From a virus: a stretch of 23,733 bases of DNA. A program made the translations under genes and the position numbers. Below the pieces are notes generated by a model. It did not search any database. It saw nothing but the letters and a program-made list of their open reading frames with translations, and was not told where the DNA came from. The DNA lies in IMG/VR virus record IMGVR_UViG_3300042806_000268, positions 1-23,733 of that record; one strand, given 5' to 3'. Each line of letters begins with the position of its first letter. Within the stretch, counting starts at the first letter, position 1. Positions 4,200-21,449 of the stretch are shown here, in pieces.

Positions 4200-4460
4200 T
4201 CACTTCTCCTTATCATAGTTTAATAATAATATAACATAATGTACTGCCTTTAATAGATCAGCACGATTATATCCGTTCTTCTTACCATACCTACACAAGT
4301 ATTTAATTGCGTTGGCGTGACAAAAATCTTTACCAATGTTTAAAGTCTTAAACAAATCTTGTACTTGAAAACCATCACTGCCAACAGAATAGTGTTGACC
4401 ATAAGTGGAAGTAATGTAGTTTGAGATTTCTTTTAAGATTTTATCTTCATTGTATTTCAT
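4200..4460 (-). CDS. DUF3310-like small protein
   Basis: 86 residues. The C-terminal half, ANAIKYLCRYGKKNG (about 50-64) followed by DLLKAVHYVILLL (69-81), fits the small phage family DUF3310, whose members show a NAIKYIxRxxxKxG...DLxKAxxYL pattern and are sometimes annotated as nucleotide-kinase-like or phosphohydrolase-like. I know no proven activity. It is the first gene of the clamp operon, two bases before gp45. There is no Shine-Dalgarno sequence; the promoter at 4467-4495 ends six bases before the ATG, so its message is probably leaderless. Confidence 0.6.
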   Translation of the reverse strand: MKYNEDKILKEISNYITSTYGQHYSVGSDGFQVQDLFKTLNIGKDFCHANAIKYLCRYGKKNGYNRADLLKAVHYVILLLNYDKEK

Positions 4461-4466
4461 ATTATC

Positions 4467-4495
4467 AATATATCACAATATGAAAAAAATGTCAA
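4467..4495 (-). promoter_or_regulatory. Strong sigma-70-type promoter of the clamp/RegA operon, predicted leaderless
   Basis: On the minus strand, TTGACA (4490-4495), a 17-base spacer and TATATT (4467-4472). Six bases (GATAAT) separate the -10 box from the ATG at 4460, which places the predicted +1 on the A of the ATG. No purine-rich ribosome site is present. Confidence 0.75.
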
Positions 4496-4499
4496 GGTG

Positions 4500-5084
4500 T
4501 TATACGTTAAGACTTATTAATTTATTTTCGTAGTCTGTAATATCATCTTGTACTTCAATAGGTAATAAATCAAAAGCAGGAGTAAAATATTTAGTTTCTA
4601 ATTTATCTTTATTATAATCATAAACTTTAATTTCAGCTTTCTCATATAACTCTTTAGTAGTACATTTTAATATTGATTTCGGATTAAAACTTGATAATAT
4701 TCTATTTTCAGTTTTTAACATTCTACAACATATACACATAATATTTAATATTTTTCTATATAACTCTTTATCTAAATATTTTTTTCTATATTCTGGTTCA
4801 ATTATCATTTGAAAAAAATGAGAAGATGGTCTTAAGCAATGGTCATTAGTTAGTTTTTTGTTATCTTTTTTAAAATCTTTTGGGAATTGAGATACTGCAT
4901 TATGACTAGCAAATAAAGGAATATTATATCTACAAGTACTATCATAAACACTTCTTGCAAAATATCGTTTAAGTGTTTTTCTGTATAGTTTATTGGTATT
5001 ACTATCAAACAAAGATATCTTGTGTTTGTAATCTTCGAAAGATATATCTACTACTTGATCGGGTACTTTGTTTGGTATTATCAT
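4500..5084 (-). CDS. Unknown protein paired with ParB-like gene
   Basis: 194 residues from ATG 5084; a GTG five codons upstream (5099) is possible but has no ribosome site. The ATG comes just after the stop of the ParB-like gene at 5086, so the two are likely co-transcribed. I do not recognise the family. Visible features are a central NDHCLRPSSHFFQMI segment (about 80-94) with two His and a Cys, a Cys-rich stretch IMCICCRMLKTENRIL, and a mixed charged C-terminus. No signal peptide or membrane segment is seen. The His/Cys cluster could bind metal, for example in a nuclease, but that is a guess. The gene's strong A/T bias matches its ParB-like neighbour. Confidence 0.75.
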   Translation of the reverse strand: MIIPNKVPDQVVDISFEDYKHKISLFDSNTNKLYRKTLKRYFARSVYDSTCRYNIPLFASHNAVSQFPKDFKKDNKKLTNDHCLRPSSHFFQMIIEPEYRKKYLDKELYRKILNIMCICCRMLKTENRILSSFNPKSILKCTTKELYEKAEIKVYDYNKDKLETKYFTPAFDLLPIEVQDDITDYENKLISLNV

Positions 5085-5085
5085 A

Positions 5086-6030
5086 TTATTTAAACTCACT
5101 AGGTAATTGTGGTAAAAATGTAAACTGTAATTCTTTTACTTTTTTTTCATCAAGTAGTTTAATAAATTGTCTCATTTCATTTACTCTATTTTCAAATAAT
5201 TTTAGTTTTGCTTTTCTTACTGCAAGAATATGATTAGGATTAGGGTTTTCAATATAAGCTAATACGTTAACATTACAAGATGGGTGTTTTAATTGAGCTT
5301 TAACGAAAGAATTAAATATTCTACTATCATAATCTTTATCATCATTTTCATTATAAAATTGTTGTTTAAAATATACTGTATTGTCATCAGAATTTAATTC
5401 TATTTTTTTAGGTGTAGAAACAGCAATATTAAAATTTGCATTTATATAATCATCTGCTGTCGTGGCATTATAATTTTTACAAATTGTTGGACTAAGTTTT
5501 GTATCAAATAATATATCTGATAACAATTTATTAATTTTTTTTGGAGATACTTGCTGATCTTTTAACGACTGTCTAACATCATCTTCAGTAGGTTTGATTA
5601 AATTTAATTTTATTTGATTCAAAGTAGTTACTACTATATCGTGGTCTGTTCTAGGATTTCTAATAAACTCATCATTATCAGGATTGTTTTCTACAGACGT
5701 CCAGGTTGTTTGCCAGTATTCAGCTAATTTATTTTTAAAGTCTATAAATTTAACTACTGCGACTGTAATATATTCTTGGTTTTCTAATACGTGTGCATTG
5801 TATTTGTGGTAGCCGGAAACTAATGTACAATCTTCTAATACACACGGTGGTGTATTTAATTCTGTATTATAGGTTCTATTTCTTATAGCTTTTTGAAATT
5901 TATTTACAATGTTAAAATCTATTATTCTATTATTTTTTTCAGCTTTAATATCTTTAACTTTTACTATTTTTGATTCAATAAAAACTAGGCCGTTAGAAAC
6001 TGGTATCTTTATTTTTACGTCTTTATTCAT
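5086..6030 (-). CDS. ParB/sulfiredoxin-fold-like protein
   Basis: 314 residues. The N-terminal third resembles the ParB-like nuclease/sulfiredoxin fold: VKVKDIKAEKNNRIID (about 23-38), then PPCVLEDCTLVSGYHKYNAHVLEN (61-84), where GYHKYNAH stands in for the GxHRxxA signature, and ITVAVVKFID (88-97). Members of this fold act as CTPases or nucleases, or occur as adaptor domains in phage and defence proteins. A helical middle (EDDVRQSLKDQQVSPKKINKLLSDIL) could be a helix-turn-helix. The C-terminal half, with HILAVRKAKLKLFENRVNEM, is unfamiliar. It has its own promoter (6066-6094) behind the Hsp20 terminator and is followed by the unknown gene at 4500-5084. The ParB-like call is by motif only. Confidence 0.65.
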   Translation of the reverse strand: MNKDVKIKIPVSNGLVFIESKIVKVKDIKAEKNNRIIDFNIVNKFQKAIRNRTYNTELNTPPCVLEDCTLVSGYHKYNAHVLENQEYITVAVVKFIDFKNKLAEYWQTTWTSVENNPDNDEFIRNPRTDHDIVVTTLNQIKLNLIKPTEDDVRQSLKDQQVSPKKINKLLSDILFDTKLSPTICKNYNATTADDYINANFNIAVSTPKKIELNSDDNTVYFKQQFYNENDDKDYDSRIFNSFVKAQLKHPSCNVNVLAYIENPNPNHILAVRKAKLKLFENRVNEMRQFIKLLDEKKVKELQFTFLPQLPSEFK

Positions 6031-6065
6031 AATATATTTTTGTTTTCAAGTTAAGTTATACATAT

Positions 6066-6094
6066 AATATAACATATATTTTTGATTATTACAA
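6066..6094 (-). promoter_or_regulatory. Sigma-70-type promoter for ParB-like/unknown pair
   Basis: On the minus strand, TTGTAA (6089-6094), 17 bases, then TATATT (6066-6071). The predicted +1 is near 6059, leaving about 29 bases of AT-rich leader before the ATG at 6030, with no clear Shine-Dalgarno sequence. It sits between the Hsp20 terminator and the gene. Confidence 0.6.
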
Positions 6095-6139
6095 TGGTTA
6101 TACAAAAGAAATATGCTAATTAAATCAATGACATATGTT

Positions 6140-6165
6140 AAAGGGCCAAACTAAATTGGCCCTTT
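6140..6165. terminator. Hairpin terminator after Hsp20
   Basis: AAAGGGCCAA (6140-6149) and TTGGCCCTTT (6156-6165) form a perfect 10-bp stem with a 6-base loop, 13 bases past the Hsp20 stop codon. The stem ends in three U on either strand, with little further U tract on the minus strand, so it may act as a terminator or an mRNA 3'-end stabiliser. Confidence 0.75.
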
Positions 6166-6177
6166 AATAACTTTAAA

Positions 6178-6621
6178 CTACTTAATATCAATAGTTCTTG
6201 GTTTTTTTGTTTCAGGTATAATCTTCTCTAATGATACCTTTAATAGACCATCTTTTAATTCAGCGCCTTTGATTTCTACATCATCAGCGATTGTAAATGA
6301 TCTTTCAAAGTATCTTTTAGCGATACCTTTGTACAGTGTATTATCTTTGACTTCCTCTTTATCAGATTTTTTAGATTTGATAGTTAACTGTCCATCTTCA
6401 AAGGTTACGTCTATATCTTTTTTATTGTAACCAGCAAGAGCCACTTCAATATCATATTTGTTCTTAGCTGTTTCTACAATATTGTATGGTGGATAATTTA
6501 CTGTTGGGACTCTTAATCCAAAGTCGTCATTTAGCATTGACTCAAAGTGGTCAAATACATTATTAAACCCTATGGATAAAGGTCTTAGTTGATTGAATAT
6601 GCTTAATTGTTTATTAGTCAT
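6178..6621 (-). CDS. hsp20: Hsp20 family small heat-shock chaperone
   Basis: 147 residues. Small heat-shock proteins hold unfolding proteins in the cytoplasm without ATP. The N-terminal segment LRPLSIGFNNVFDHFESML is IbpA-like. The alpha-crystallin domain spans about 43-140: YNIVETAKNKYDIEVALAGYNKKDIDV, then LTIKS, a GIAKRYFERSF strand and the DGLLKVSLEK strand (about 118-128). The C-terminal motif is RTIDIK in place of the usual I-x-I. Length is normal. An AAGGAGA ribosome site precedes the ATG at 6621. The leader has an overlapping sigma-70-like and exact T4-late promoter (6682-6714) and a hairpin, so expression may start early and continue late. Hsp20 genes are common in marine T4-like phages; a role in virion assembly is often suggested but not shown here. 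Confidence 0.95.
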   Translation of the reverse strand: MTNKQLSIFNQLRPLSIGFNNVFDHFESMLNDDFGLRVPTVNYPPYNIVETAKNKYDIEVALAGYNKKDIDVTFEDGQLTIKSKKSDKEEVKDNTLYKGIAKRYFERSFTIADDVEIKGAELKDGLLKVSLEKIIPETKKPRTIDIK

Positions 6622-6651
6622 TTTTATCTCCTTTTGTTAAGCAAGTTAAAA

Positions 6652-6678
6652 TTGAAAGCCCACTATTGGCACTTTCAA
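6652..6678 (-). other. Hairpin in the hsp20 5' leader
   Basis: TTGAAAG and CTTTCAA (7 bp) enclose a CCA/TGG inner stem with an ATAG loop, just downstream of the promoter and about 30 bases before the hsp20 start. It does not cover the AAGGAGA site. On the minus strand it is followed by AATTTTAAC, so attenuation is possible but weakly supported. Confidence 0.5.
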
Positions 6679-6681
6679 TAT

Positions 6682-6714
6682 TATTTATATAGTTATTCAA
6701 CTATACTTTGTCAA
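6682..6714 (-). promoter_or_regulatory. Overlapping sigma-70-like and T4-late promoter for hsp20
   Basis: TTGACA (6709-6714), 17 bases and TATATA (6686-6691) form an early-type promoter. The overlapping TATAAATA (6682-6689) is an exact T4 late promoter. Both give a leader of roughly 55 bases to the ATG at 6621. Confidence 0.7.
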
Positions 6715-6715
6715 G

Positions 6716-6824
6716 TGGTGGTTTGTTTATCACGGAGTAAACCACCAAACACCGATTTTCTACAGTATTTTAAAGTAAATACTGAACTTTTTAACGCCGA
6801 CTAGGTCTTATGAATTGCCTAGTC
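6716..6824. other. Structured gene-free spacer with three inverted repeats between rpsU and hsp20
   Basis: Three inverted repeats lie in a row in the 238-base spacer 6622-6859: TGGTGGTTT/AAACCACCA (6716-6724 and 6739-6747), directly against the -35 box of the hsp20 promoter; CAGTATTT/AAATACTG (6763-6770 and 6777-6784, 6-base loop); and GACTAGG/CCTAGTC (6799-6805 and 6818-6824, 12-base loop). None carries a proper U tract in the minus direction. Two near copies of TCGGYGTT lie between them on the minus strand. It could be a small RNA, a 3' UTR with protective hairpins for rpsU, or operator sites. I see no ORF with a ribosome site. Confidence 0.5.
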
Positions 6825-6859
6825 TATAATATATATACAGGTTCAATATAACGTTAAAA

Positions 6860-7069
6860 CTAGTAACCTCTTAGATTTCTTAGTTCTTTTTGCTTCTTTA
6901 AAAAGTTAGCTCGCATTTCTTTTGCTTTTCTAACTCTTTTTTCAGATGGCTTTTCATAAGTCTGTTTCATCTTGTACAGTCTCATAACGCCTTCTTTAAG
7001 AAGTTTCTTTTTAAGAATACGCATTGCCTTTTCGACATTGTTATTCTTAACTTCTACTTTGAGTCCCAA
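6860..7069 (-). CDS. rpsU: 30S ribosomal protein S21 homologue (TTG start)
   Basis: 69 residues, full length for S21. In bacteria S21 sits on the 30S platform near the anti-Shine-Dalgarno end of 16S rRNA and supports initiation. The family signature is clear: VEKAMRILKKKLLKEGVMR (12-30), then YEKPSEKRVRKAKEMR (39-54) and a basic tail. Translation must start at TTG 7069, because a TAA stop lies immediately upstream in frame and the next Met is internal. A perfect AAGGAGGT ribosome site lies about 9 bases before the TTG and is the strongest in the window. A long hairpin (7091-7127) precedes it. S21 genes are known in some marine phages; an exchange for host S21 to bias ribosomes is a published idea for the family, not shown here. 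Confidence 0.93.
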   Translation of the reverse strand: MGLKVEVKNNNVEKAMRILKKKLLKEGVMRLYKMKQTYEKPSEKRVRKAKEMRANFLKKQKELRNLRGY

Positions 7070-7090
7070 TTAAATATACCTCCTTAGGGT

Positions 7091-7127
7091 GTTTAGAGTG
7101 GCCATTATTGGCCACTCAGGACTAAAC
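7091..7127 (-). promoter_or_regulatory. Stem-loop in rpsU leader, just above its ribosome site
   Basis: A perfect 9-bp stem GAGTGGCCA/TGGCCACTC (7096-7104 and 7109-7117, loop of 4) is extended by GTTTAG/CTAAAC (7091-7096 and 7122-7127) with a 4-base bulge. The minus-strand RNA after it reads ACCCTAAGGAGGT, without a U tract, so it is not a classical terminator. Its place between the MoxR stop and the rpsU ribosome site suggests processing or autogenous control. Confidence 0.6.
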
Positions 7128-7135
7128 TGATAGAT

Positions 7136-8326
7136 TTAGACAACGTCTTGCGACTTGTCTTCCTCACCATCATTGGAATCCGTTTGAGATTGAGCCGCAA
7201 CTTCTGACTGTCTTTGAGATTCTATGATCTGGTCAGCAGTAGCACCGGCATCAACTTTAGTGTATAAATCTACAAATGAAGTTTTAGTATCTTCATCAAA
7301 TCTATTTGTACACAATTCAATTGCTTTTACTTTATTACTAAAGATTGAGTACGCTTGTACGATATGTACTAATCTTCTTGTGGAAATAATCTCATCAACA
7401 CCACCTTCAAAATAGGTTTTTCTGATGACATCAGCCCACGTAACAAGTTTATTTACATAGTTGGTATCTTTTTTACCTGTTGATTCTAAAACATTGTTTA
7501 ATATTTTTTCTTCTGTTTTAGTATTAGGATACCTTTGTTCAAATGTAACTGGAAATCTTTCAAGGAAAGCTTCGTTAAGAATATTGGTACCGATAAACTT
7601 ACCATCTTCTGAACCTTGACCTTTAGTATTGGCAGTTGCCACTACGTTAAAGCCTTCTTTTGGTTTTACAAATTTGTTAATTTTTTTAACAAATACACCA
7701 GAGCCTTCTAAGATAGGTTGTAAACACATAATCTTATTTGAAGCTAAGTCAATCTCATCTAATAAAAGAAGAGCGCCTCTTTCCATTGCTTCAATAACTG
7801 GACCGTTCTGCCATACAGTTTGGCCATCTTTTAATCTATAACCACCTAGTAAGTCATCTTCGTCGGTTTCAATTGTTACGTTAACTCTAATACATTCTTT
7901 TTTAGCTTCAGCACAAGCCTGTAATATAGACATTGTTTTACCGTTACCAGATAGACCTGTAACAAACACTGGATAAAACTTACCAGATTTGATAATAGAT
8001 TTAACATCAGGATAGTTACCGAATGGTACAAACGTAGCATCTTTTTTAGGTACAATGTCACCTGTAAGAGAAGATACTATGTAAGCGGCTTCTTTTTTAA
8101 TTTCAATATCAGTTGTTTTTTCAACCTTACTTGATTTTGAATTTGCCATAGGTAATTTATAAGTACCTCTACCTACTTTATATTCGTCAGCTTTTAACCA
8201 AGACGGGTTTTTCAATTTTTCTGATTTATAAAAATCATTAATTTCAGCTCTAGTTAAAACTTCTTTTTTGTAGAAAGCATAAGCTTTTTCTACGAAGTCT
8301 TTTTGAGACTTATTAAGATCAATCAT
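7136..8326 (-). CDS. MoxR/CobS-type AAA+ ATPase
   Basis: 396 residues. The N-terminal 100 residues are helical, with a short GRGTYKLPM patch (52-60). The AAA+ core follows: Walker A GLSGNGKT (124-131), Walker B LLLLDEID (186-193), sensor 1 ATANT (230-234) and arginine finger ERF (256-258). The 246-260 region (GTNILNEAFLERFPV) is typical of the MoxR/CobS group. The C-terminal tail is acidic and Gln/Ser-rich. MoxR ATPases usually work with VWA-domain partners in metal insertion or complex assembly, and the next gene upstream (8430-10679) encodes such a partner. Marine phage versions are often labelled CobS, but no CobN-like chelatase subunit is seen here. An AAGGA ribosome site precedes the ATG. 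Confidence 0.85.
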   Translation of the reverse strand: MIDLNKSQKDFVEKAYAFYKKEVLTRAEINDFYKSEKLKNPSWLKADEYKVGRGTYKLPMANSKSSKVEKTTDIEIKKEAAYIVSSLTGDIVPKKDATFVPFGNYPDVKSIIKSGKFYPVFVTGLSGNGKTMSILQACAEAKKECIRVNVTIETDEDDLLGGYRLKDGQTVWQNGPVIEAMERGALLLLDEIDLASNKIMCLQPILEGSGVFVKKINKFVKPKEGFNVVATANTKGQGSEDGKFIGTNILNEAFLERFPVTFEQRYPNTKTEEKILNNVLESTGKKDTNYVNKLVTWADVIRKTYFEGGVDEIISTRRLVHIVQAYSIFSNKVKAIELCTNRFDEDTKTSFVDLYTKVDAGATADQIIESQRQSEVAAQSQTDSNDGEEDKSQDVV

Positions 8327-8357
8327 TTAGTTTAGTCCTTTCATCATTTAGTTTATA

Positions 8358-8385
8358 CATATATAATAACATATAATTGTGTCAT
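8358..8385 (-). promoter_or_regulatory. Weak sigma-70-like promoter for MoxR-type gene
   Basis: On the minus strand, ATGACA (8380-8385), 16 bases, then TATATG (8358-8363). The match is poor, and a nearby TATTAT (8363-8368) is an alternative -10 box. The CACAAT repeats at 8376-8392 overlap the -35 region, so activator dependence is possible. The leader is about 25 bases and carries AAAGGA. Confidence 0.35.
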
Positions 8386-8392
8386 CATTGTG
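8376..8392 (-). repeat. CACAAT direct repeat, 11-base period (upstream of MoxR gene)
   Basis: CACAAT occurs at 8376-8381 and 8387-8392 on the minus strand, inside two tandem copies of ATGACACAAT(G/T). The 11-base period is one helical turn. The same arrangement recurs at 10763-10779 before the partner gene, which points to a shared regulator site. Confidence 0.4.
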
Positions 8393-8429
8393 TCATTTTT
8401 TAAAGAAAAAACCTTTTAAAATCATATAC

Positions 8430-10679
8430 TTAAACGATTTGTTCTATAAATTTGTTCAATAATACTCTGGAATGCAGTCTACCTTTCATAGATTTGGTAA
8501 AGATTCGTTTAATTTCACTAGTAGTATTACCACTATTAACAGTACTTAAATCGGCGTTTTCAATATTCATATCTTTAGCATTAACGACATAGTAAGAGTT
8601 ATAACCATCTTTAGATATTTCTATTACCTTATCTTTTAAAAATTGTTTTCTGATTTTTTCAAAGTTTGGGTTGTATGTAAATTTACCATTTTTTGAAAAG
8701 TATTCATCTACAAATTGACTAAAGGAATTTTTATTAACTCTTTTAGTTAAGTAAAAACCAATAGTAGTAACATTATATTTTGATTGTAATATTTTTAATA
8801 ATGAAGATGTAAGTGCTGTTCTATTAGAATTATAATGTCTTCCTTCGTAACCAGTTTTTGTAGTATATGTTTTCTTACCTTCTTTAATAACTGTCTGTGC
8901 ATCATATCTACTATCAGATTTATTGTTTGGTAAAGAATTATTAAAATTGTAACTAGCAATCTCACTATTAGATTCACCATCAGTAAGAGTAATAAATGAT
9001 AGTTTTTCTACTTTATATTTTGCTTGAAATAAAGGTATTAATTTATTGCACATTATAATTGCTTCATTTAACGGTGTTGATGTTAAATGATAATTTTGAT
9101 CTACTGGAATCACATATCCTCTTTCAGCAATATTATCAAAAGAATAAGCGTAATTTCTATTGAAATAAGTGGCCATTGAATAAAGGTGTAATAATGATTC
9201 GTGTAATATTGTTTTTTTCATTCTGTGGCTAGCAACATTTACTAGTTGAGATTTTTCAGCAAACATATTACCATTTTTTAATTTAAAATATTCTTTAGTA
9301 TCGCCTTTTTTATCTTGTACATCTTTAAACAAATATACTTCAAAAGGTATATTAATTTTTTGACAAAACCAAACTAGATTACATAATTGGTGTACAGTTT
9401 TATTCATAATATCACACATTGAACCTGACCAATCTAATAACATAATCATACCGTGATTTTTGCTATTAGGTAATACTGTCAATCTTTTAAAAATATCATC
9501 ACTGAATTTATAGTTTTTTAATTTAAGAGAATCAATAACACCTGTTTTATCAGTAGTTGCTCTCTTATGAGCAGTCGCTGCTTTTTTCATTTCAAATTCT
9601 TTAACCAAATACATTACTGTTTTTGTGCTGTCTTTTTTGAATTTTAGAAAGTCTTGTTTAATCCAATTCCAGTATTTTATATACTGTTCGTGATTAGACT
9701 GAATATCGTTAAGATGTTTTTTAAAATGATTAGTATTGTTATCTCTCATATCTTTTAAAAATTGATCGTAAGATACTAAAGCATTTTTTAAATTAGGTTC
9801 AGGTAAAGTAGAGTATCTATAATTTTTAGTTTTATCTAATAATTTATCTACTGATTGTTCAAAAGACTTATCAGTAATACAATCTAAAGCAGTGTCAACT
9901 TTAATATTATCACCACCAGCACCATAAGGGTTACCAACAGAAGAACTGCTTTTTTGTTTATCTTCTGATTCGTCTGAATTGTTATTTGAAGGGTTATTAT
10001 TATCGCTTTCAGTTTTAACTGTAATTTGAATTGTTGATTTGCCGTTTTTATCTAATTTATAATTTTTAGATAATGGGTGATTGTCAAAGTCTGGTAACTT
10101 AGATAATTGTTCTAATTGCTTTTCTTGCCATCCATATAACTCTTTAGCAATTTTTAATACGTCTGTAAATGTTTTGATGTTGTCAATTTTATCTACCCAC
10201 GATTGTTCTTCTTTTGAAAAGTTAAATTTTAATTTTTTAGATGACTTATAATACATATTAATTTTATCAATTAACATTAAATCTGTGTTTATATTTTTAC
10301 CTTTTAAACCAAAGAAATTATCTTTAGTTAGAATTTCAAAAGCGTTAATATAGTTTTTTACTATACCTGGATATTTTTTTTGAATTAATTTGTCTATTCT
10401 AGTATCTTCAATAACGTTAACATAAGCTCTATATTTTGGATCTTCTAATTTAGACCATGCTTTTAAAGGAGTATGTAATGCGTGAGAACATTCGTGAGCC
10501 GTTAACATATCGTAAACGTCACCTGATGGTTTTTTAAATATTGGTAATGTAACAATTCTATTCTCTAAATCAAAAGAGGCTGTTCTTACGTTATTATGCT
10601 CTACTGATAAATTTTCAGTTGCAAATAGTTTGGCAAGTTGAGACTTAGAATCAATATTAACTGTTTTAGTGTTAATCAT
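8430..10679 (-). CDS. CobT-like protein: zinc-metallopeptidase-type N-terminus plus VWA domain
   Basis: 749 residues. The N-terminus has a gluzincin-like HExxH motif, HECSH (62-66), followed by NVIEDTRIDKLI (88-99), where Glu91 would be the third zinc ligand. An Asn/Ser-rich linker runs from about 225 to 250. The C-terminal half holds a von Willebrand A domain with a full MIDAS site: DWSGS (416-420), TPLNEA (535-540) and TDGES (566-570). This layout is that of CobT-like and peptidase proteins in marine T4-like phages. The pair with the MoxR/CobS ATPase downstream is a typical MoxR-VWA unit, where the ATPase remodels a target held by the VWA protein. Whether the peptidase is active is unknown. 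Its promoter ends six bases before the ATG at 10679, so the mRNA is probably leaderless. It is the longest gene in the window. Confidence 0.85.
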   Translation of the reverse strand: MINTKTVNIDSKSQLAKLFATENLSVEHNNVRTASFDLENRIVTLPIFKKPSGDVYDMLTAHECSHALHTPLKAWSKLEDPKYRAYVNVIEDTRIDKLIQKKYPGIVKNYINAFEILTKDNFFGLKGKNINTDLMLIDKINMYYKSSKKLKFNFSKEEQSWVDKIDNIKTFTDVLKIAKELYGWQEKQLEQLSKLPDFDNHPLSKNYKLDKNGKSTIQITVKTESDNNNPSNNNSDESEDKQKSSSSVGNPYGAGGDNIKVDTALDCITDKSFEQSVDKLLDKTKNYRYSTLPEPNLKNALVSYDQFLKDMRDNNTNHFKKHLNDIQSNHEQYIKYWNWIKQDFLKFKKDSTKTVMYLVKEFEMKKAATAHKRATTDKTGVIDSLKLKNYKFSDDIFKRLTVLPNSKNHGMIMLLDWSGSMCDIMNKTVHQLCNLVWFCQKINIPFEVYLFKDVQDKKGDTKEYFKLKNGNMFAEKSQLVNVASHRMKKTILHESLLHLYSMATYFNRNYAYSFDNIAERGYVIPVDQNYHLTSTPLNEAIIMCNKLIPLFQAKYKVEKLSFITLTDGESNSEIASYNFNNSLPNNKSDSRYDAQTVIKEGKKTYTTKTGYEGRHYNSNRTALTSSLLKILQSKYNVTTIGFYLTKRVNKNSFSQFVDEYFSKNGKFTYNPNFEKIRKQFLKDKVIEISKDGYNSYYVVNAKDMNIENADLSTVNSGNTTSEIKRIFTKSMKGRLHSRVLLNKFIEQIV

Positions 10680-10685
10680 ATATAT

Positions 10686-10714
10686 AATATAACACCTTTA
10701 ATCGTATTTTACAA
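10686..10714 (-). promoter_or_regulatory. Sigma-70-type promoter of CobT-like gene, predicted leaderless
   Basis: On the minus strand, TTGTAA (10709-10714), 17 bases, TATATT (10686-10691), then six bases (ATATAT) and the ATG at 10679. The predicted +1 is the A of the ATG, and no ribosome site lies within reach. Confidence 0.65.
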
Positions 10715-10762
10715 TGATTACAGCCAAAGAAAAAAGATAATAAATTCAATGACTTAAAAAGA

Positions 10763-10779
10763 ATTGTGTCTAAATTGTG
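10763..10779 (-). repeat. CACAAT direct repeat, 11-base period (upstream of CobT-like gene)
   Basis: CACAATT occurs twice on the minus strand (cores 10763-10768 and 10774-10779), eleven bases apart, about 50 bases upstream of the -35 box. It repeats the arrangement found before the MoxR partner gene at 8376-8392. Confidence 0.4.
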
Positions 10780-10798
10780 ATGCAAGTACCTATTTTTT

Positions 10799-11932: not shown

Positions 11933-12129
11933 TATTCTTTTTCTTGTTCTATTATATCTTTTTGTGACCACTGTAAGGTTTTACTTCTATTTAAAGAACC
12001 TGCGCCTTCAGCAATACCTGGTTTTAATTTTGTAACTTTACCACCTTTATCTAAAAATTCTTTTAGAAGTTTATCTCTTTCTTCTTGTGACATTTTAGGT
12101 TTTAAAGGTTCATCTGTAAAACTAACCAT
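11932..12129 (-). CDS. Small unknown protein between deformylase and DNA methylase
   Basis: 65 residues, highly charged, with no Cys. A central GGKVTKLKPGIAEGAG stretch (29-44) looks like a conserved motif and follows a short helix EERDKLLKEFLDKG. Similar short hydrophilic proteins occur in marine T4-like phages, but I cannot name a family. The ATG at 12129 overlaps the deformylase stop (12122) by eight bases, and its own stop overlaps the methylase start, so it sits in the middle of a coupled operon, which supports it as a real gene. Confidence 0.7.
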   Translation of the reverse strand: MVSFTDEPLKPKMSQEERDKLLKEFLDKGGKVTKLKPGIAEGAGSLNRSKTLQWSQKDIIEQEKE

Positions 12130-15547: not shown

Positions 15548-15548
15548 A

Positions 15549-16121
15549 CTAATTAATAAAATATTCTAATTTACTTTTTTTCTTTTTTTTCTTTTGATTT
15601 TGTTTTTTCATCTCTCTATGATGAGCAAGACTTTCAATCTTGGGTACTTCTTCTATAGGTAAATTCTTTTTTAAAAATTCTGTAAACTGATTATGGAATT
15701 CTCTATCTTCACCAGGTTGTAGTGTCATATCATCAAAATTAGAATCTAATAACATCTTATGCTTGATTGTTACTTGTTTCTTTTCTTTTTGTATTCTTCT
15801 TATAAATGCATAATATATAATTTGTGTAAAGTATGCAAAAGGATTATTTGATTTATCGGGATTAAAGTTATCTAAGTATTGTAAACAATTTTCTATACCA
15901 TCAGAAATCATATCATCTCTAAAAGTATAGTTAATAAAATTCGGTCTATATGATAAGTGATTTGCTATTTTTAAAAAACAAGTTCCAATATAATCAGGTA
16001 CTCTTGGTTTTGTTTTACCTTCTTTAACCGATTGCTTGACTGTTTTTTTATATTCAATCATTGCGGCCAAAAAATCTTTATTACTTACGTAATGCTCTTT
16101 TGATTTTTTTGATGTTGTCAT
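15549..16121 (-). CDS. 55: Late-transcription sigma factor gp55
   Basis: 190 residues. In T4, gp55 directs host RNA polymerase to TATAAATA late promoters with gp33 and the gp45 clamp. The similarity to T4 gp55 covers the whole chain: VSNKDFLAAMIEYKK (12-26), IGTCFLKIANHLSYRPNF, YTFRDDMISDGIENCLQYL, FNPDKSNNPFAYFTQIIYYAFIRRI (this last block is sigma region 2-like) and a short linker. The C-terminus ends SKLEYFIN after a long Lys run; in T4 the end is SLDFLYEAND and binds the clamp, so this tail is the likely clamp-binding peptide. Its ATG sits six bases after a consensus -10 box, with no Shine-Dalgarno. Exact TATAAATA promoters in this window fit its role. I found no gp33 gene in the window. 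Confidence 0.94.
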   Translation of the reverse strand: MTTSKKSKEHYVSNKDFLAAMIEYKKTVKQSVKEGKTKPRVPDYIGTCFLKIANHLSYRPNFINYTFRDDMISDGIENCLQYLDNFNPDKSNNPFAYFTQIIYYAFIRRIQKEKKQVTIKHKMLLDSNFDDMTLQPGEDREFHNQFTEFLKKNLPIEEVPKIESLAHHREMKKQNQKKKKKKSKLEYFIN

Positions 16122-16127
16122 TATTTA

Positions 16128-16156
16128 AATATACTACAGTTTGTGTTATTTGTCAA
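16128..16156 (-). promoter_or_regulatory. Strong sigma-70-type promoter of gp55-47-46 operon, predicted leaderless
   Basis: On the minus strand, TTGACA (16151-16156), 17 bases, TATATT (16128-16133), six bases (TAAATA), then the ATG at 16121. The predicted +1 is the A of the ATG. Confidence 0.75.
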
Positions 16157-16190
16157 TCACTTATACAAAAAAATGCGTTTTTAAAATTGG

Positions 16191-16218
16191 TTGACTTTTT
16201 CATTTAAAATGATATACT
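16191..16218 (+). promoter_or_regulatory. Plus-strand sigma-70-like promoter, antisense to the Sm-like gene
   Basis: TTGACT (16191-16196), 16 bases, TATACT (16213-16218) reads rightward. It would start near 16225 and run antisense into the 3' end of the Sm-like gene (16255-16665) and uvsW. No plus-strand gene is supported downstream, so this may be an antisense RNA start or chance in AT-rich DNA. Confidence 0.4.
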
Positions 16219-16254
16219 GAGCTTGTAGAGCGAAGAAATAGTATAGAGTTAGAG

Positions 16255-16665
16255 TTAATGGAGTGTTTTCTTTTTATCTCTAAAGCCATCCCACAATTCA
16301 TTATACTTATCATTCTCCTCTTTGCTTAACGGTTTGGGCTTTTCTTCTTCTTTTCTTTTTGGAGTTTCTATTAGATCATACTTAGATGATACATCATAAT
16401 AACTTTTGGCTAGTTCATCTGTAGCTTTAGTAATAGTTATAATTTTATCTTTTGGGAGAGTTACGATTAAATCATTCGTATATGCAGTCCATTTAATTAA
16501 AGCAATATAGTCTCTTAGACCTTTAGCTGTTAACTGTGATACGTATTTAATTTGTAACGGCCTTTCCAATCTAAGTAAAGGCGAGTCCTGTGGCAACTGT
16601 TCTTTTGCTAGAGTGCAAACAATGTCATCGCCGTTTATTAATTTAATTATTTTGATCTCGTCCAT
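16255..16665 (-). CDS. Sm-like (Hfq/LSm-type) phage protein
   Basis: 136 residues. The first 80 residues suggest a small beta barrel: IKIIKLINGDDIVCTL (4-19), LERPLQIKYV (33-42), YIALIKWTAYT and DLIVTLPKDKIITIT (65-79). It then has an acidic/Lys/Pro tail (KRKEEEKPKPLSKEEN). The order resembles the truncated gene at 1-217, so two paralogues lie in one window. An RNA- or DNA-binding role is inferred from the fold resemblance only. The start at 16665 overlaps the uvsW end by 23 bases, with no clear ribosome site, so it probably depends on coupling with uvsW. Homologues next to uvsW are usual in marine T4-like phages. Confidence 0.7.
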   Translation of the reverse strand: MDEIKIIKLINGDDIVCTLAKEQLPQDSPLLRLERPLQIKYVSQLTAKGLRDYIALIKWTAYTNDLIVTLPKDKIITITKATDELAKSYYDVSSKYDLIETPKRKEEEKPKPLSKEENDKYNELWDGFRDKKKTLH

Positions 16666-18139
16666 TATTTAATTCTATGTTGTGTATTTCGTAGGTAAAG
16701 TTTTCACTTGTGTATATATTTATCCTCTCTCGGAAATGAGCTAAAGTATAGTTTTCTTTTCCATTATAAGAAAGGTCATCAGCTATATCATATAGTGTTG
16801 CACTTGATTTATTATCCTTTAAACGTAAACCTCTTCCAATAGATTGTAAATTACGAATACGAGATTTTGACGGAGACGCAAAAACTATGTTATGTAAATT
16901 TCTTATATTAATACCTGTACTAAATGTTCCATAACTAGCTATTATAATTGCGTTATCTGATTTCTCAGTTATAAATCTTATCTTCTCTCTTTCTTCAGCT
17001 TCTACCCCACCATAAACGAAAAATATTTTTTTATCTTTAGCCTTATCTTCTATAAGTTGTTTTAATATTACTCCGTGTTTCTCTACGTACTGAAATAGTA
17101 CTAAAGAATTACCTTGTAAATTTAAACATAGATTACGAATATACTTATTTCTTTTTTCATTCGATACTAAAAAATCCATTTCTTCTTGGTAACTTTTATC
17201 TTTTAAAAACTGTTTAGAGTGAGTATCGTGTTGAAGTATTAAACATATAATTTTAAGATCAGCTAATTGTTTCTTTTCTTGTAGTTCAGCAGTTGATGTA
17301 ACTTTATTAACAGCACCAAACAAACCTTCTAAAACTAATTTGTTAGTCTTTGTTCCATCTAAAGTACCTGTCAACCCATATCTATATTTACAATCTTCTA
17401 ATTTAGTCATTATCTTACTTAAAGAAACAGCTTTAAATAAATGACACTCATCACCAATAACCATACCAAAAGATTTAAACCATTTCTTAGGCATATTATA
17501 AATTGATTGCCACGTTGATATAATTACGTTTTTATTTGTTTCTTTATCGTGACCTTGATATATTCTATGTATATTTTTATTTGAATCCCACCCATAATCT
17601 TCAAAGTCTTTATATAACTGTTCTACTAAAGATGTAGTAGGAACAATAATTAGTATTTTTTGATTTAGTTTTTTTAAACGAATTAAATTGAATCTTACTA
17701 ATAGATAAACTATTAATGATTTACCTGAGGCTGTAGGAGACAATAATAAACAACGATTTTTTCTAAGACTGTGAATAAATGCTTCTCTTTGATAATCACG
17801 CACTTCTAAAGGTATTTTTAAAGCATTTATAAATCCATCAACAGCTTTTATATCTACCTCAGTATCTTTATTTTTAGTACCATCAACAACTTGTATTTTA
17901 TTTTCTTCACACCATTTTAATATATAAGGATATAGACCAGCATATATTTGTCCAGTAGCATATGAAAATAATCTAATACGACCATCCCAAACTCTATTTC
18001 TAAAAGCAGGAACAAATTTATAACCTGGTACCTCAAACGTAAAATATTCTGATAACTCTCTACGTATAGAATCATCAGCTTCTATTTTAAGATATACTTC
18101 GTTTTTCTTATCTATGATAATGTATTTAATAAGTGTCAT
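16643..18139 (-). CDS. uvsW: UvsW-type recombination helicase
   Basis: 498 residues from ATG 18139. T4 UvsW is an SF2 helicase that unwinds R-loops and branched DNA, ending origin replication and helping recombination-dependent replication. The N-terminal part YFTFEVPGYKFVPAFRN (32-48), followed by WDGRIRL (51-57), matches T4's FFSFEADGYRFNPRFR...WDGRIRL. The helicase motifs are SPTASGKS (134-141, motif I), GDECH (229-233, motif II), GLTGTL (motif III) and QSIGRGLR (motif VI). The ATG at 18139 overlaps the uvsY stop by one base (TAATG); the in-frame ATG ten codons upstream (18169) is less likely. Length is close to T4 UvsW (503). Confidence 0.95.
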   Translation of the reverse strand: MTLIKYIIIDKKNEVYLKIEADDSIRRELSEYFTFEVPGYKFVPAFRNRVWDGRIRLFSYATGQIYAGLYPYILKWCEENKIQVVDGTKNKDTEVDIKAVDGFINALKIPLEVRDYQREAFIHSLRKNRCLLLSPTASGKSLIVYLLVRFNLIRLKKLNQKILIIVPTTSLVEQLYKDFEDYGWDSNKNIHRIYQGHDKETNKNVIISTWQSIYNMPKKWFKSFGMVIGDECHLFKAVSLSKIMTKLEDCKYRYGLTGTLDGTKTNKLVLEGLFGAVNKVTSTAELQEKKQLADLKIICLILQHDTHSKQFLKDKSYQEEMDFLVSNEKRNKYIRNLCLNLQGNSLVLFQYVEKHGVILKQLIEDKAKDKKIFFVYGGVEAEEREKIRFITEKSDNAIIIASYGTFSTGINIRNLHNIVFASPSKSRIRNLQSIGRGLRLKDNKSSATLYDIADDLSYNGKENYTLAHFRERINIYTSENFTYEIHNIELNNGRDQNN

Positions 18140-18567
18140 TATACAGCGCCACTTGTAAACCTTCTCCACTCTATGGCATTTTTAATTGTATAAGTTCTAT
18201 TGACTATCATTCTTAATGTACGATCTAAAAAATCAACAACGGTATGTAAATATACAACTTTTTGAGACAATAGTTTTATATCTTCATCAGCATCTAAATA
18301 TTTGTCTATATCAGTTTTTAATATCTTCAAATCAAAAGGTTTATTAATATATACACTCGGGTCTGACTTACCAGTATAATACTCCCACTTATCACGTCTA
18401 AGTGTCTTAAAATCGTCCTCAGCACGTGTTAATAGAAGTTTAAACTTAGTATAGTGTTTCATATACTTATTGTGTAATTGTGGTGTTCTTAATGATTCTA
18501 AATCTAATTCAACATCATTAATTTTAAGGTCTTTGTCTGCTTGTTCTTGTAGTTCTTCAAGTGTCAT
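18139..18567 (-). CDS. uvsY: Recombination mediator UvsY
   Basis: 142 residues from ATG 18567. T4 UvsY loads UvsX recombinase onto gp32-covered single-stranded DNA. The sequence begins MTLEELQEQADKDLKIND, as T4 begins MRLEDLQEELKKD, has similar length (T4 137), keeps a basic central block with YYTG (T4 YYSG), and ends with an Ile/Lys-rich helix like the T4 C-terminus. The start is set by GGAG about eight bases upstream and the one-base overlap with the PP-loop gene stop (TAATG); an in-frame ATG seven codons earlier (18588) is the alternative. It directly precedes uvsW. Confidence 0.9.
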   Translation of the reverse strand: MTLEELQEQADKDLKINDVELDLESLRTPQLHNKYMKHYTKFKLLLTRAEDDFKTLRRDKWEYYTGKSDPSVYINKPFDLKILKTDIDKYLDADEDIKLLSQKVVYLHTVVDFLDRTLRMIVNRTYTIKNAIEWRRFTSGAV

Positions 18568-19208
18568 TAATATACTCCAAATGCCCATTTCTTTTCTTCA
18601 CACCACCAACACTTTTTACAGGGCTTTTTATATTGATTGGTTTGTTCTTGGTTTTCATTTATACAACTATATGTATAAGGTAGTAAAGTTTTTAATAGAT
18701 TGTTTTCTTTATAAATTAAAGCAATATCTTTTTTATTTAAATGATATAAAGGAATAAATTTTTTATCAATTTTAGTACCATCATTATCAATCATATATTT
18801 TTCATTATCTCTTTTTTTATCTCTATTTTCATTATCTTTAAACTTAACATTAGGATTTTTAGTTGCTCCTAAAACAATAAAATCAGTTTGTTTAAAACTA
18901 TTAAAATCGTTAGATGACAGTTCAAATTTATGTTTTAAATACTTTATTATTTTTTTACAAAACTTAAATTTAGTTAATTTAGTTATTTGTTTTAATATAT
19001 CATCAGATTTTTTATTTAAAAAATGATTAGTATGATTTTTAGGTAAGAAAATTAAAGGTGTTATAGTTTTTTTAATTTTACTATCTTTTAAATGTTTTGC
19101 TATCAAATAAGTTAACAATGTACTATCACTTCCACCAGACATACTAACAATAATATTATTAGTAAAAGCAGGCAAATCTAATGTTATTTTTTTATGTATT
19201 TTTAACAT
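18567..19208 (-). CDS. QueC-like PP-loop ATPase
   Basis: 213 residues. The PP-loop SGGSDST (about 24-30) is that of N-type ATP pyrophosphatases, which activate a substrate by adenylation. The C-terminus has YSCIN (about 179-183), PCKKCWWCEEKKWAFG (195-210): four Cys in the C-x(n)-C-x2-C-x2-C arrangement of QueC-type enzymes (7-cyano-7-deazaguanine synthase). QueC makes preQ0 for tRNA, and in some phages for DNA modification. The middle is unusually rich in Lys/Asn/Asp and differs from classic QueC, so related sulfur- or amide-transfer PP-loop enzymes remain possible. No QueD, QueE, QueF or DpdA-like partner is in the window. It has its own promoter ending 11 bases from the ATG and is followed by uvsY with a one-base overlap. 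Confidence 0.7.
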   Translation of the reverse strand: MLKIHKKITLDLPAFTNNIIVSMSGGSDSTLLTYLIAKHLKDSKIKKTITPLIFLPKNHTNHFLNKKSDDILKQITKLTKFKFCKKIIKYLKHKFELSSNDFNSFKQTDFIVLGATKNPNVKFKDNENRDKKRDNEKYMIDNDGTKIDKKFIPLYHLNKKDIALIYKENNLLKTLLPYTYSCINENQEQTNQYKKPCKKCWWCEEKKWAFGVY

Positions 19209-19219
19209 AATATAATATT

Positions 19220-19248
19220 ATTATAACACAAAACTATAATAAAATCAA
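19220..19248 (-). promoter_or_regulatory. Sigma-70-type promoter of the PP-loop-uvsY-uvsW operon
   Basis: On the minus strand, TTGATT (19243-19248), 17 bases, TATAAT (19220-19225), then 11 bases to the ATG at 19208. The predicted leader is only about 4-5 bases, with no ribosome site. The -35 box directly follows the stop of the tail gene at 19250. Confidence 0.7.
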
Positions 19249-19249
19249 C

Positions 19250-19873
19250 CTAAGTTACTGTTACTAATGTTTGAGAACTGCCAGGATTAGCAAAGTTATA
19301 AACCTTATATTTAAATGTTACATCTACAGTTAAATAGTTAATATCTGTTGCTTGTTGATTATAGTTTAAATTACCTACATTTATAGGGAAGATATCTTCA
19401 AATCTTATTTCAAGTACAGGATTGTTTTTATTTGTTAATATCATAAGTGTGGCATCCGATACTGTACCACCTTGACTAGGTGACTTAAATTTAACTTTTC
19501 CAATCTCACTACTTACTGAACTTCTACTTGTAGGAAATCTATCAGCTCCAGCTTCTGCTAAAGTTTTAAATTGGCTAGAATCTGTAGGAAACCCCAATCC
19601 AACTAACCAGCCGTGGATTTCTCTATAGTTTTCTAAATTCTCATCTACTATAAATGAAACTTGTAAATCACCATATTTTAATTTTTCTCCAGGATATGGA
19701 ATATCTTTTAAAGGTGTTTGTTGTTCTACGTAATTTAAACTTACTCCAGGAACGTTTATAGCAGTACAAAAATACTCTACTTTAGGTAACTTGATTATAC
19801 TGAATTTAAACTGTGTAGGACTAGCATAGTCTAGTTTAGTTGGTTGTCTGGTATATGAGTTAGTAATTGTCAT
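19250..19873 (-). CDS. Tail-tube-like virion protein (gp19/gp54-type fold)
   Basis: 207 residues. The pattern fits T4-type tube proteins: an N-terminal FKFSIIKLPKVEYFCTAINVPG (22-43), a mid segment YGDLQVSFIVDENLENYREIHGW in which the strand is followed by the conserved W, and a C-terminal IFPINVGNLNYNQQATDINYLTVDVTFKYK (about 163-192), matching the WPTNVGELQLDW...FEVTLALDY end of T4 gp19. It is longer than T4 gp19 (163), so it may be a paralogue such as a tube initiator (gp54-like), not the main tube subunit. An exact T4 late promoter ends five bases before its ATG, so it should be made late, as expected for a virion part. Confidence 0.65.
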   Translation of the reverse strand: MTITNSYTRQPTKLDYASPTQFKFSIIKLPKVEYFCTAINVPGVSLNYVEQQTPLKDIPYPGEKLKYGDLQVSFIVDENLENYREIHGWLVGLGFPTDSSQFKTLAEAGADRFPTSRSSVSSEIGKVKFKSPSQGGTVSDATLMILTNKNNPVLEIRFEDIFPINVGNLNYNQQATDINYLTVDVTFKYKVYNFANPGSSQTLVTVT

Positions 19874-19878
19874 AGTAA

Positions 19879-19886
19879 TATTTATA
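19879..19886 (-). promoter_or_regulatory. Exact T4-type late promoter, predicted leaderless
   Basis: TATAAATA on the minus strand, followed by TTACT and the ATG at 19873. In T4 the +1 lies about six bases after this box, here the A of the ATG. The preceding gene's stop abuts the box at 19887. Confidence 0.7.
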
Positions 19887-20957
19887 TTAACTTATAATAC
19901 GTCTTTTTGTACCTTTACGTTTAATATCTAATGTTAAACAATGTACACCACCTTCCCAGTATAAACTATGACGTTGAGGAATACAATGGCTATTAATGTT
20001 TAGAGTTTTTAGATATTTAAACAATGCAGGTATTTCTCTATTAAACAATATATTATTACTATCTAATATTAATACATTTAAATCAAAACAAACTTCTTGT
20101 GAAAATCCTCTCCAATTATTTAAATATGATTCCAAATAAGACTTTGAATATTTACCACCCGTTTGCTTATATTCATTAACATACTTTTCAAAGTTTAAAG
20201 GTGGAAGATACTTACCAACGTCTATTAAATTTTTATTCCTTAAACATAAAGGAACCCAATCAATATTATTATGTATTACCGTATCATCATTTATTAAAAT
20301 AAACCCGTGATCTATGTGGCCATAATTATCAGTTATAGTTCCTTCGTTTTCAATAAAACGGATATCAGGTAAGTTTCTTTTAACCCAATTCAATCCTCTT
20401 TTAGAACCAGGACCTGTTCCGTTATAAATTACACTATCGCCTGCTTTAAACATAACAGCAGTATGAAACAATAATTGTTCTTTTAATAAATCACTATAGA
20501 TATCTTTTCTAGTATACCAATTATCTATATTATTTAAATCTTTTAATATAGGGGGTGGACTAGATAACCAGTTATAACCTTCTTTAAATAACTGTGTAAA
20601 TATTTTTGAATAAGATAAAGAATCAAAATATCTATCAGTATAACTTGTATAAGTTTGTAATATAGTATCACCTATAACAATGTATTGGTCTCTTGGAACT
20701 ATAGGACAAATTGGAAAATTAACTTTAAAGTTAACTAAATCAAATTCTTTTTTATATTTAATAACTTCAGGTCTGTGTACTTTAATGTTTGATTTAATTA
20801 AAAAATCAGAAAGATTATTTAAATCTTCTTTAGTTTCTTCTAATATTTTATTAAATCCATCTATAGTATCTTTAGGTAAAGCCCAATCTAAATCGCCGGG
20901 ATCATAACAATCGCCAACAATAACTTCCTGTAAAGGATCAAATTCTGTGTATATCAT
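19887..20957 (-). CDS. Glycine amidinotransferase-like enzyme (AGAT/guanidino-group superfamily)
   Basis: 356 residues. AGAT enzymes move an amidino group from arginine to an acceptor amine. The start YTEFDPLQEVIVGD (3-16) is the family N-terminus. PRDQYIVIGDTI (88-99) matches the conserved xRDxxxVIG strand. HID (214-216) corresponds to the AGAT catalytic His, and GGVHCLTLDIKRKG (336-349) to the active-site Cys loop, with Cys340 as nucleophile. The third catalytic residue, Asp in AGAT's DAADF, is not obvious here: the region aligns with HTAVMFKAG (165-173), so the enzyme may have a changed mechanism or acceptor. The length matches the family (about 350-420). Its ATG overlaps the preceding small gene by four bases, under a T4-late promoter between capsid and tail genes. 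Confidence 0.85.
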   Translation of the reverse strand: MIYTEFDPLQEVIVGDCYDPGDLDWALPKDTIDGFNKILEETKEDLNNLSDFLIKSNIKVHRPEVIKYKKEFDLVNFKVNFPICPIVPRDQYIVIGDTILQTYTSYTDRYFDSLSYSKIFTQLFKEGYNWLSSPPPILKDLNNIDNWYTRKDIYSDLLKEQLLFHTAVMFKAGDSVIYNGTGPGSKRGLNWVKRNLPDIRFIENEGTITDNYGHIDHGFILINDDTVIHNNIDWVPLCLRNKNLIDVGKYLPPLNFEKYVNEYKQTGGKYSKSYLESYLNNWRGFSQEVCFDLNVLILDSNNILFNREIPALFKYLKTLNINSHCIPQRHSLYWEGGVHCLTLDIKRKGTKRRIIS

Positions 20958-21400
20958 TTACCATATCCCATAATTTCTTTTAAATACTCTTTAGACCAAT
21001 TCTTATAATAGTTTGTTTTTGTTAATACTTTTCTAGCGTTATTTAATTCTTTTTTATCTTGGCACAATATTATATTGTGTTTACCATTACCTGTAGATAT
21101 TTTTTTTATGAAGGTTTTAGATTGTTTATGATCTGGTAAAAATATATAATTTCTATATTTTTTGTTTAGTATCTTACATTTACTTTTTAACTTACCAATA
21201 GAAGTCTTTTCTTTGATAACAAATATGATGACATCACAATTATATTCAATCAAATCTAAATTTATATCTTTAAAATTTACTTCAAATATTTTATATGTAG
21301 CAGATTTAGCAAAGGGACAAACTGAATAATTATCTAAGATTTTTGATTTGAATGATATACGATTAATCCACAAATATATATCTTTCATCAATGATTTCAT
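20954..21400 (-). CDS. Unknown small protein (CPFAK motif) co-transcribed with amidinotransferase
   Basis: 148 residues, basic. I do not recognise a family with confidence. A W-I....CPFAKSA segment (residues 11-34) weakly recalls the DUF1415 N-terminus, where a CPFAK-like motif also follows a Trp helix. The rest is a mixed alpha/beta chain with VIIFVIKEK, NYIFLPDHKQ and NIILCQDK strands. There is no signal peptide or membrane segment. Its stop overlaps the amidinotransferase start by four bases (ATGA), so it is probably translated together with it and may supply or accept its substrate. The late promoter TATAAATA stands five bases before the ATG, with no ribosome site. Confidence 0.7.
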   Translation of the reverse strand: MKSLMKDIYLWINRISFKSKILDNYSVCPFAKSATYKIFEVNFKDINLDLIEYNCDVIIFVIKEKTSIGKLKSKCKILNKKYRNYIFLPDHKQSKTFIKKISTGNGKHNIILCQDKKELNNARKVLTKTNYYKNWSKEYLKEIMGYGK

Positions 21401-21405
21401 AATTT

Positions 21406-21413
21406 TATTTATA
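21406..21413 (-). promoter_or_regulatory. Exact T4-type late promoter, predicted leaderless, abutting gp23 terminator
   Basis: TATAAATA on the minus strand, followed by AAATT and the ATG at 21400, so the predicted +1 is the A of the ATG. The box begins one base after the U tract of the gp23 terminator. Confidence 0.72.
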
Positions 21414-21414
21414 T

Positions 21415-21449
21415 AAAAAAAAAGGGAGAGTTTTTTAGACTCTCCCTTT
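21415..21449 (-). terminator. Rho-independent terminator after the major capsid gene
   Basis: An 11-bp perfect stem AAAGGGAGAGT/ACTCTCCCTTT (21439-21449 and 21421-21431, 7-base loop) followed by nine U on the minus strand (21415-21423). It lies about 30 bases past the gp23 stop. A second hairpin (TGTTACT/AGTAACA, 21455-21472) stands directly before it. Confidence 0.9.

Follow-up and report, generated by a model that had tools for sequence, protein, structure and literature searches.

Messages of phage T4 are the textbook case of phage messages led by a Shine-Dalgarno (SD) sequence, and the leaderless mRNA of lambda cI comes from one regulatory gene in a temperate phage. At bacterial-type promoters, six bases usually lie between the −10 hexamer and the first transcribed base (+1). 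Passages of PMC3160421 and PMC9031893 name lambda for phage leaderless mRNA; a passage of the former also describes bacterial leaderless (TA-led) genes, which have a −10-like TANNNT element ~10 base pairs (bp) upstream of the start codon and are taken as leaderless. According to PMC1524935, the T4 late box TATAAATA spans positions −13 to −6. Here, we describe a viral contig of 23,733 bases, IMGVR_UViG_3300042806_000268 (the window, analyzed at its full length), in which sigma-70-type early promoters and T4-type late boxes stand at such distances from ATG codons that RNA synthesis is predicted to begin on the start codon itself.

All genes recognized in the window are encoded by the minus strand. 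In its major capsid protein, the window shares 80% identity with Pelagibacter phage Mosig EXVC030M, 72% with OM43 phage Melnitz, and 69% with Pelagibacter phage HTVC008M. The promoters concerned and the genes they precede are as follows.

4461–4495, minus strand: sigma-70-type promoter; TTGACA (4490–4495), 17 nucleotides (nt), TATATT (4467–4472), GATAAT, then ATG at 4460; the predicted +1 is the A of the ATG.
4200–4460, minus strand: early gene of a DUF3310/phrog_480 protein (profile matches), predicted leaderless.
10680–10714, minus strand: sigma-70-type promoter with a TG extended −10; TTGTAA (10709–10714), 17 nt, TATATT (10686–10691), ATATAT, then ATG at 10679.
8430–10679, minus strand: phrog_459 gene (phrog match; annotated peptidase), predicted leaderless.
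16122–16156, minus strand: sigma-70-type promoter; TTGACA (16151–16156), 17 nt, TATATT (16128–16133), TAAATA, then ATG at 16121.
15549–16121, minus strand: gp55 gene, coding for the late sigma factor (phrog_234, E value 6.7e-62), predicted leaderless.
19209–19248, minus strand: sigma-70-type promoter read from the sequence, TTGATT-17-TATAAT, with 11 nt to the ATG (a predicted 5-nt leader); it is similar to the promoter found before uvsY in relatives such as locus L090.
18567–19208, minus strand: gene of a QueC-like PP-loop ATPase (profile matches), between that promoter and uvsY.
19874–19886, minus strand: T4-type late box TATAAATA (19879–19886) and 5 nt to the ATG at 19873, read from the sequence.
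19250–19873, minus strand: late gene of the gp3-like tail completion/tail tube family (phrog_45, tail tube), predicted leaderless.
21401–21413, minus strand: T4-type late box TATAAATA (21406–21413) and 5 nt to the ATG at 21400, read from the sequence.
20954–21400, minus strand: late phrog_10325 gene (phrog match), function unassigned, predicted leaderless.
21414–21449, minus strand: terminator-like hairpin and T-run after gp23, directly upstream of the 21406–21413 late box, read by eye from the sequence without folding.

A first-pass annotation of this DNA had proposed that several of these promoters place +1 exactly on the ATG. Reading the minus strand confirmed the exact spacing behind this proposal: TATATT ends six bases before the ATG codons at 4460, 10679, and 16121, and the late box, identical to that of T4 late transcription (gp55/gp33/gp45), ends five bases before those at 19873 and 21400. 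The short leader proposed for the gene starting at 19208 was also seen; at 5 nt, it makes this gene not strictly leaderless. Clear SD cores, claimed for gp45, rpsU, hsp20, gp23, uvsY, and def, were found in the sequence at all six genes. The whole record contains two exact matches to TATAAATA-N5-ATG, at 19873 and 21400, and none to the reversed control. With "gap" denoting the number of bases between box or −10 hexamer and start codon, two of the three TATAAATA boxes in the window are followed by a gap-5 start (chance P ~1e-5 at the rate of 55/28,738 obtained for anagram boxes), and three of its seven sigma-70-type matches at gaps 0 to 40 fall at gap 6. We consider the spacing in the window confirmed as real and beyond chance. 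Because of the usual six bases after the −10 hexamer at the early promoters, and of the T4 convention (PMC1524935) at the late boxes, +1 is predicted on the A of the ATG.

The genome-scale spacing scan suggested along with the first-pass annotation was run on relatives of the window and revealed an excess at exactly 5 nt for the late box and 6 nt for the sigma-70 type. We collected 269 IMG/VR loci by homology to four window proteins (best 80 matches per protein; 37 for one); some loci are pieces of one contig, and identical contexts were removed. These loci, together with Mosig, HTVC008M, Melnitz, contig G001, and the window, form the clade set. A start was called when an ATG opening an open reading frame (ORF) of at least 60 amino acids (aa) stood at the stated gap after the box; 55 anagram octamers served as controls. 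In the 269 loci, 40 of 276 TATAAATA boxes had an ATG at exactly gap 5, compared to 0.5 expected. The 789 distinct [ACGT]ATAAATA boxes of the clade set yielded 0, 0, 115, 7, 6, and 6 starts at gaps 3, 4, 5, 6, 7, and 8, representing 0, 0, 34, 5, 6, and 5 protein families, respectively. When the ORF limit was lowered to 40 aa, gap 5 contained 118 starts from 37 families. The largest family, the gp3-like tail protein, accounts for 57 of the 118; its HTVC008M counterpart, the gene after the capsid gene, is annotated as a tail completion protein. Gap-5 starts were also seen for the DNA end protector family (Mosig, HTVC008M, Melnitz, and G001) and, in HTVC008M, for csgF, a baseplate wedge subunit, and a 2OG-Fe(II) oxygenase. 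Late genes at gap 5 in HTVC008M include those at 6280, 7562, 18916, 31132, and 49760.

The arrangement is concentrated in this clade. Gap-5 starts per [ACGT]ATAAATA box amounted to 6/56 in Mosig, 9/45 in HTVC008M, 3/42 in Melnitz, 5/70 in G001, and 2/5 in the window, compared to 0/65 in T4, 0/38 in Syn9, 2/47 in P-SSM4, 1/59 in S-PM2, 1/66 in P-SSM2, 1/46 in AG-345-F15, and 0/44 in DSL-LC03. The five clade genomes or contigs (25/218) thus differ from T4 and the six cyanophage-type records (5/365) with a Fisher P of 1.6e-7, or 6.5e-7 with the window left out. The single TATAAATA-N5-ATG match of T4 is not at an annotated gene start. The genes described here share with bacterial TA-led genes the ~10-bp distance to the −10 or box, the absence of an SD, and the AUG start, but they belong to lytic T4-like phages and are also driven by the phage's own late box. 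Unlike the lone lambda cI, they are numerous, include structural genes as well as others, and belong to a lytic clade.

Early promoters were scanned with a TTG-type −35 and a TATAAT-type −10, using two scrambled consensuses as controls. At gap 6, the clade set contained 102 starts in 20 families, compared to five starts in four families and one start in one family with the scrambled consensuses; gaps 5, 7, and 9 held 20, 24, and 37 starts in 8, 10, and 9 families, respectively. Among distinct orthologue upstream regions, the promoter was at gap 6 in 37 of 83 for gp55 (gap 9 in 20, gap 7 in 12, and gap 5 in 1), 27 of 59 for DUF3310, and 12 of 36 for the phrog_459 peptidase. For the gp3-like gene, 55 of 82 distinct upstream regions had ATAAATA at gap 5, and 10 more had CTAAATA there. 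With a GC content of 29%, the window is rich in TATATT-like words, and chance in AT-rich DNA might be invoked for such coincidences. This is contradicted by the anagram boxes, the scrambled promoter consensuses, the neighboring gaps, and the conservation in orthologues; we reject chance as very improbable.

Bases around the predicted start point in the same direction. SD-led promoters are free of an ATG constraint at offset 5 from the late box; in 109 of them from the clade, this position is A in 73% of cases and G in 13%. The values are 65% A and 13% G in 52 SD-led outgroup promoters, and 42% A and 28% G in 304 clade boxes without a nearby ATG. The purine peak in SD-led promoters independently points to the same predicted +1. 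In the gap-5 class, 96% of starts have a T immediately before the ATG, and T forms the majority there in 32 of 37 families, compared to 45% of SD-led promoters at the same offset. The resulting pyrimidine-A step should fix initiation on the A. These data bear on the possibility that genome compaction simply pressed promoters onto genes, so that the RNA has a leader only a few nucleotides long and is translated in the ordinary way. The box and 5 nt before 19873 do fill the entire intergenic space after the TAA of the preceding gene (19887–19889), and the sigma-70 gaps of 7 to 9 in gp55 and uvsY relatives would leave leaders of 1 to 3 nt. Compaction, however, predicts a decay from gap 5 upward rather than the drop from 115 to 7, 6, and 6, and the prevalence of T at −1 (32 of 37 families) also speaks against it; we judge it unlikely. 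What the arrangement does allow is for a gene's own promoter to fit within 13 bases.

SD sequences follow the same division. An SD core (GGAG, AGGA, or GAGG) is absent from 112 of 115 gap-5 late starts and present in 101 of 198 late starts at 15 to 40 nt. Other genes are consistently SD-led: an SD was found in 37/37 upstream regions of gp45, 41/41 of hsp20, 34/34 of cobS, and 77/78 of gp23. The spacing, its sharpness, its conservation over families and orthologues, and the absence of SD from the leaderless class are all direct observations. Start codon identity was dropped as added evidence: gap-5 ORFs of at least 60 aa begin with 115 ATG, 1 GTG, and 0 TTG, but this is not discriminating because SD-led late starts are almost all ATG as well (101 ATG, 2 GTG, and 1 TTG). 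SD-less initiation might instead occur inside long mRNAs, with the boxes secondary and expression due to read-through from upstream promoters. The genes are co-directional, and genes with neither SD nor adjacent promoter do exist (uvsW and some DUF3310 orthologues), as this explanation would have it. It would not set the spacing at exactly 5, however, and 49 of 118 gap-5 cases, from 10 of 37 families, show a run of at least six T in the 32 nt preceding the box; we therefore regard read-through as quite improbable. Misassigned start codons, with the true SD-led starts downstream, appear barely credible. Such errors do occur (the ORF list has gp45 from 4216, and its SD precedes the ATG at 4198), but N termini read from the ATGs in question are conserved in close orthologues (e.g., MKYNEDKI of the DUF3310 protein), and upstream DNA diverges except for the promoter.

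We thus consider it likely that marine T4-like phages use at least two classes of starts, one leaderless with +1 on the ATG and one SD-led. In the first class, transcription from a gp55-dependent late box, or from an early promoter of the sigma-70 type (in many cases with an extended −10), would begin on the A of the ATG, and the 5′-AUG of the leaderless mRNA would recruit the ribosome without an SD. In the second class, RNA would begin at least 10 bases upstream and carry an SD. We infer both steps of the first class, RNA starting at the ATG and ribosome use of the 5′-AUG, from the sequence patterns described above.

Several observations weigh against this interpretation. Gaps 6 to 14 after late boxes are sparse but not empty (38 starts in the clade set), 97 of 198 late starts at 15 to 40 nt have no SD core, and 17 of 82 gp3-like upstream regions lack both ATAAATA and CTAAATA at gap 5. 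Families are a fairer unit than starts, since members of one family share ancestry and several loci derive from the same contig. In IMG/VR as a whole, among the matches listed, ORFs of at least 60 aa followed gaps 4, 5, and 6 in 41/122, 100/116, and 43/118 cases (41, 77, and 43 with a stop within 60 nt upstream); this comparison is muddied and offers weak support because the gap-4 and gap-6 patterns contain a built-in in-frame stop. The sigma-70 excess at gap 6 is mainly due to a few families and is weak within single genomes, and the outgroup also has six such starts in five families. The promoter is at gap 9 or 7 in 32 of 83 gp55 upstream regions, and an SD core is present in 13 of the 70 with a promoter at gaps 5 to 9; an SD precedes gp55 in HTVC008M, Melnitz, and P-SSM4. 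Of 78 uvsY upstream regions, 16 have the promoter at gaps 5 to 8, 20 at gap 9, and 45 have an SD core. Gap-9 cases of gp55 and uvsY often carry GAGG- or GGAG-like bases between the −10 and the ATG; these would stay untranscribed because the usual +1 falls downstream of them. Last, only 5 of 71 uvsW upstream regions have an SD core, and this operon-internal gene has no adjacent promoter either. The two translation classes of the first-pass annotation therefore hold as a split between SD-less gap-5/6 genes and SD-led genes but are not exhaustive: some operon-internal genes have neither signal, and gap-9 variants exist.

The gap-9 arrangement was seen upstream of gp55 and uvsY in relatives such as L019, L030, and L048. 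The same genes switch start mode between phages. In Mosig, G001, and HTVC008M (CTAAATA), the gp3-like gene stands at gap 5 from its box, and in Melnitz it starts 22 nt past the box, behind AAGGG; gp55 is at gap 6 in the window and at gap 9 in Mosig. In Melnitz (L280) and L158, the late-box gap-5 ATG near the gp3-like gene opens only a short frame that overlaps the real start downstream. In relatives such as L090, uvsY is at gap 6 of a promoter, and the window uvsY lies behind GGAG; the QueC-like gene may have captured this promoter, the leader now being 5 nt (18567–19248). DUF3310 orthologues without promoter or SD (L209, L212, L177, L210, L242, and L247) are directly preceded by a conserved stretch close to GGGGCAGTACCAGTTGTCCGCTCCA, which may be where an undescribed RNA ends. 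The stretch has a tRNA-like look, but no call was made there by ARAGORN (L209, L212, L177, and L210) or Rfam (L177, L209, and L247).

SD usage was compared between phages and SAR11 using ATG-initiated ORFs from 400 kilobases of each of two SAR11 genomes, with a window further upstream as control. A 4-nt SD match preceded 63/362 and 64/383 SAR11 ORFs (47 and 53 in the control), compared to 93/151 in Mosig and 90/150 in HTVC008M (28 in the control for each). SD use is stronger in the phages than in the SAR11 host. Counting the −10 alone, TATAAT-like hexamers at gaps 5 and 6 numbered 25 and 17 in the two SAR11 samples, with ~8.7 expected in each. The strict pattern TTGACA-17-TANNNT-6-ATG had no match in two SAR11 genomes, and a −35/−10 scan of two SAR11 contigs revealed no clear gap-6 excess (three starts in three families). 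The small SD signal and the TATAAT excess at gaps 5 and 6 suggest that leaderless starts may fit the host, and the arrangement may be well suited to bacteria with little dependence on SD, for instance SAR11.

The extreme SD-led member in the window is a ribosomal protein gene.

7078–7085, minus strand: perfect SD, AAGGAGGT, before rpsU, read from the sequence; the sole AAGGAGGT of the window.
6860–7069, minus strand: phage rpsU, coding for bS21, with a TTG start (phrog_21469, E value 5.3e-13).

Among the matches listed, AAGGAGGT stood upstream of phage rpsU in 21 of 45, and in 12 of 13 at 77% identity or more. It does not precede rpsU in HTVC008M, G001, or Melnitz; Mosig has two copies (rpsU and hsp20), and HTVC008M has three, none at rpsU. 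SAR11 rpsU has GGAGG just upstream of the conserved coding region at 22 of 22 loci (L524 to L545, from 22 of 25 genomes searched that matched). At least in L542 and L544, no ATG, GTG, TTG, or CTG start is available; AUU is therefore the likely start. A passage of PMC9976891 describes an exceptionally strong SD at Flavobacterium rpsU and autoregulation through bS21-free ribosomes. The strong SD is common to phage rpsU, which differs by its TTG start and by the wide use of SD in the phages; the likeness to autoregulation is suggestive only. The bS21 of HTVC008M enters E. coli ribosomes, as cited in passages of PMC9723584 and PMC9976891. A simple link from phage S21 to leaderless starts was not supported: Melnitz encodes S21, yet its gp55 has no gap-6 promoter and is preceded by GGAG. 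We hypothesize that phage S21 may have a role in start-site choice. One doubtful scheme is that SAR11-type phages, in a host making scant use of SD, run two-channel translation, in which leaderless mRNAs would serve any ribosome and SD-led ones would be favored by ribosomes with a free anti-SD, the phage bS21, with its perfect SD and weak UUG start, both setting and reading the balance much like bS21 in Flavobacterium.

The window also encodes uvsY, a uvsW-type helicase, a RegA-type repressor, clamp-loader subunits, gp45, hsp20, and gp23 besides gp55 and bS21. Thus, gp55 and gp45 are present in this fragment; a gp33-type late-promoter accessory factor is annotated in Mosig and HTVC008M. At 250–1734, a RimK-type ATP-grasp domain is fused to a Zn-protease-like domain (PF05618, E value 1.1e-9). 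The gene at 19887–20957 codes for 356 aa without a Pfam match (phrog_25854, unknown); its N-terminal EVIVGDC is perhaps reminiscent of amidinotransferases.

The open-licence literature searched, in the parts available, contained no description of leaderless T4-type late mRNAs; in the Melnitz paper, "leaderless" occurs once, within a reference title. Leaderless mRNA as such is already known; a systematic class arising from T4-type late boxes looks new. Leaderless late and early genes with base-exact spacing, common to many protein families of ocean viruses, would offer a natural setting in which to study leaderless translation during a lytic program, and the spacing rule should help to predict start sites and promoters in these genomes. 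The leaderless class also makes the effect of phage S21 on start-site choice testable.

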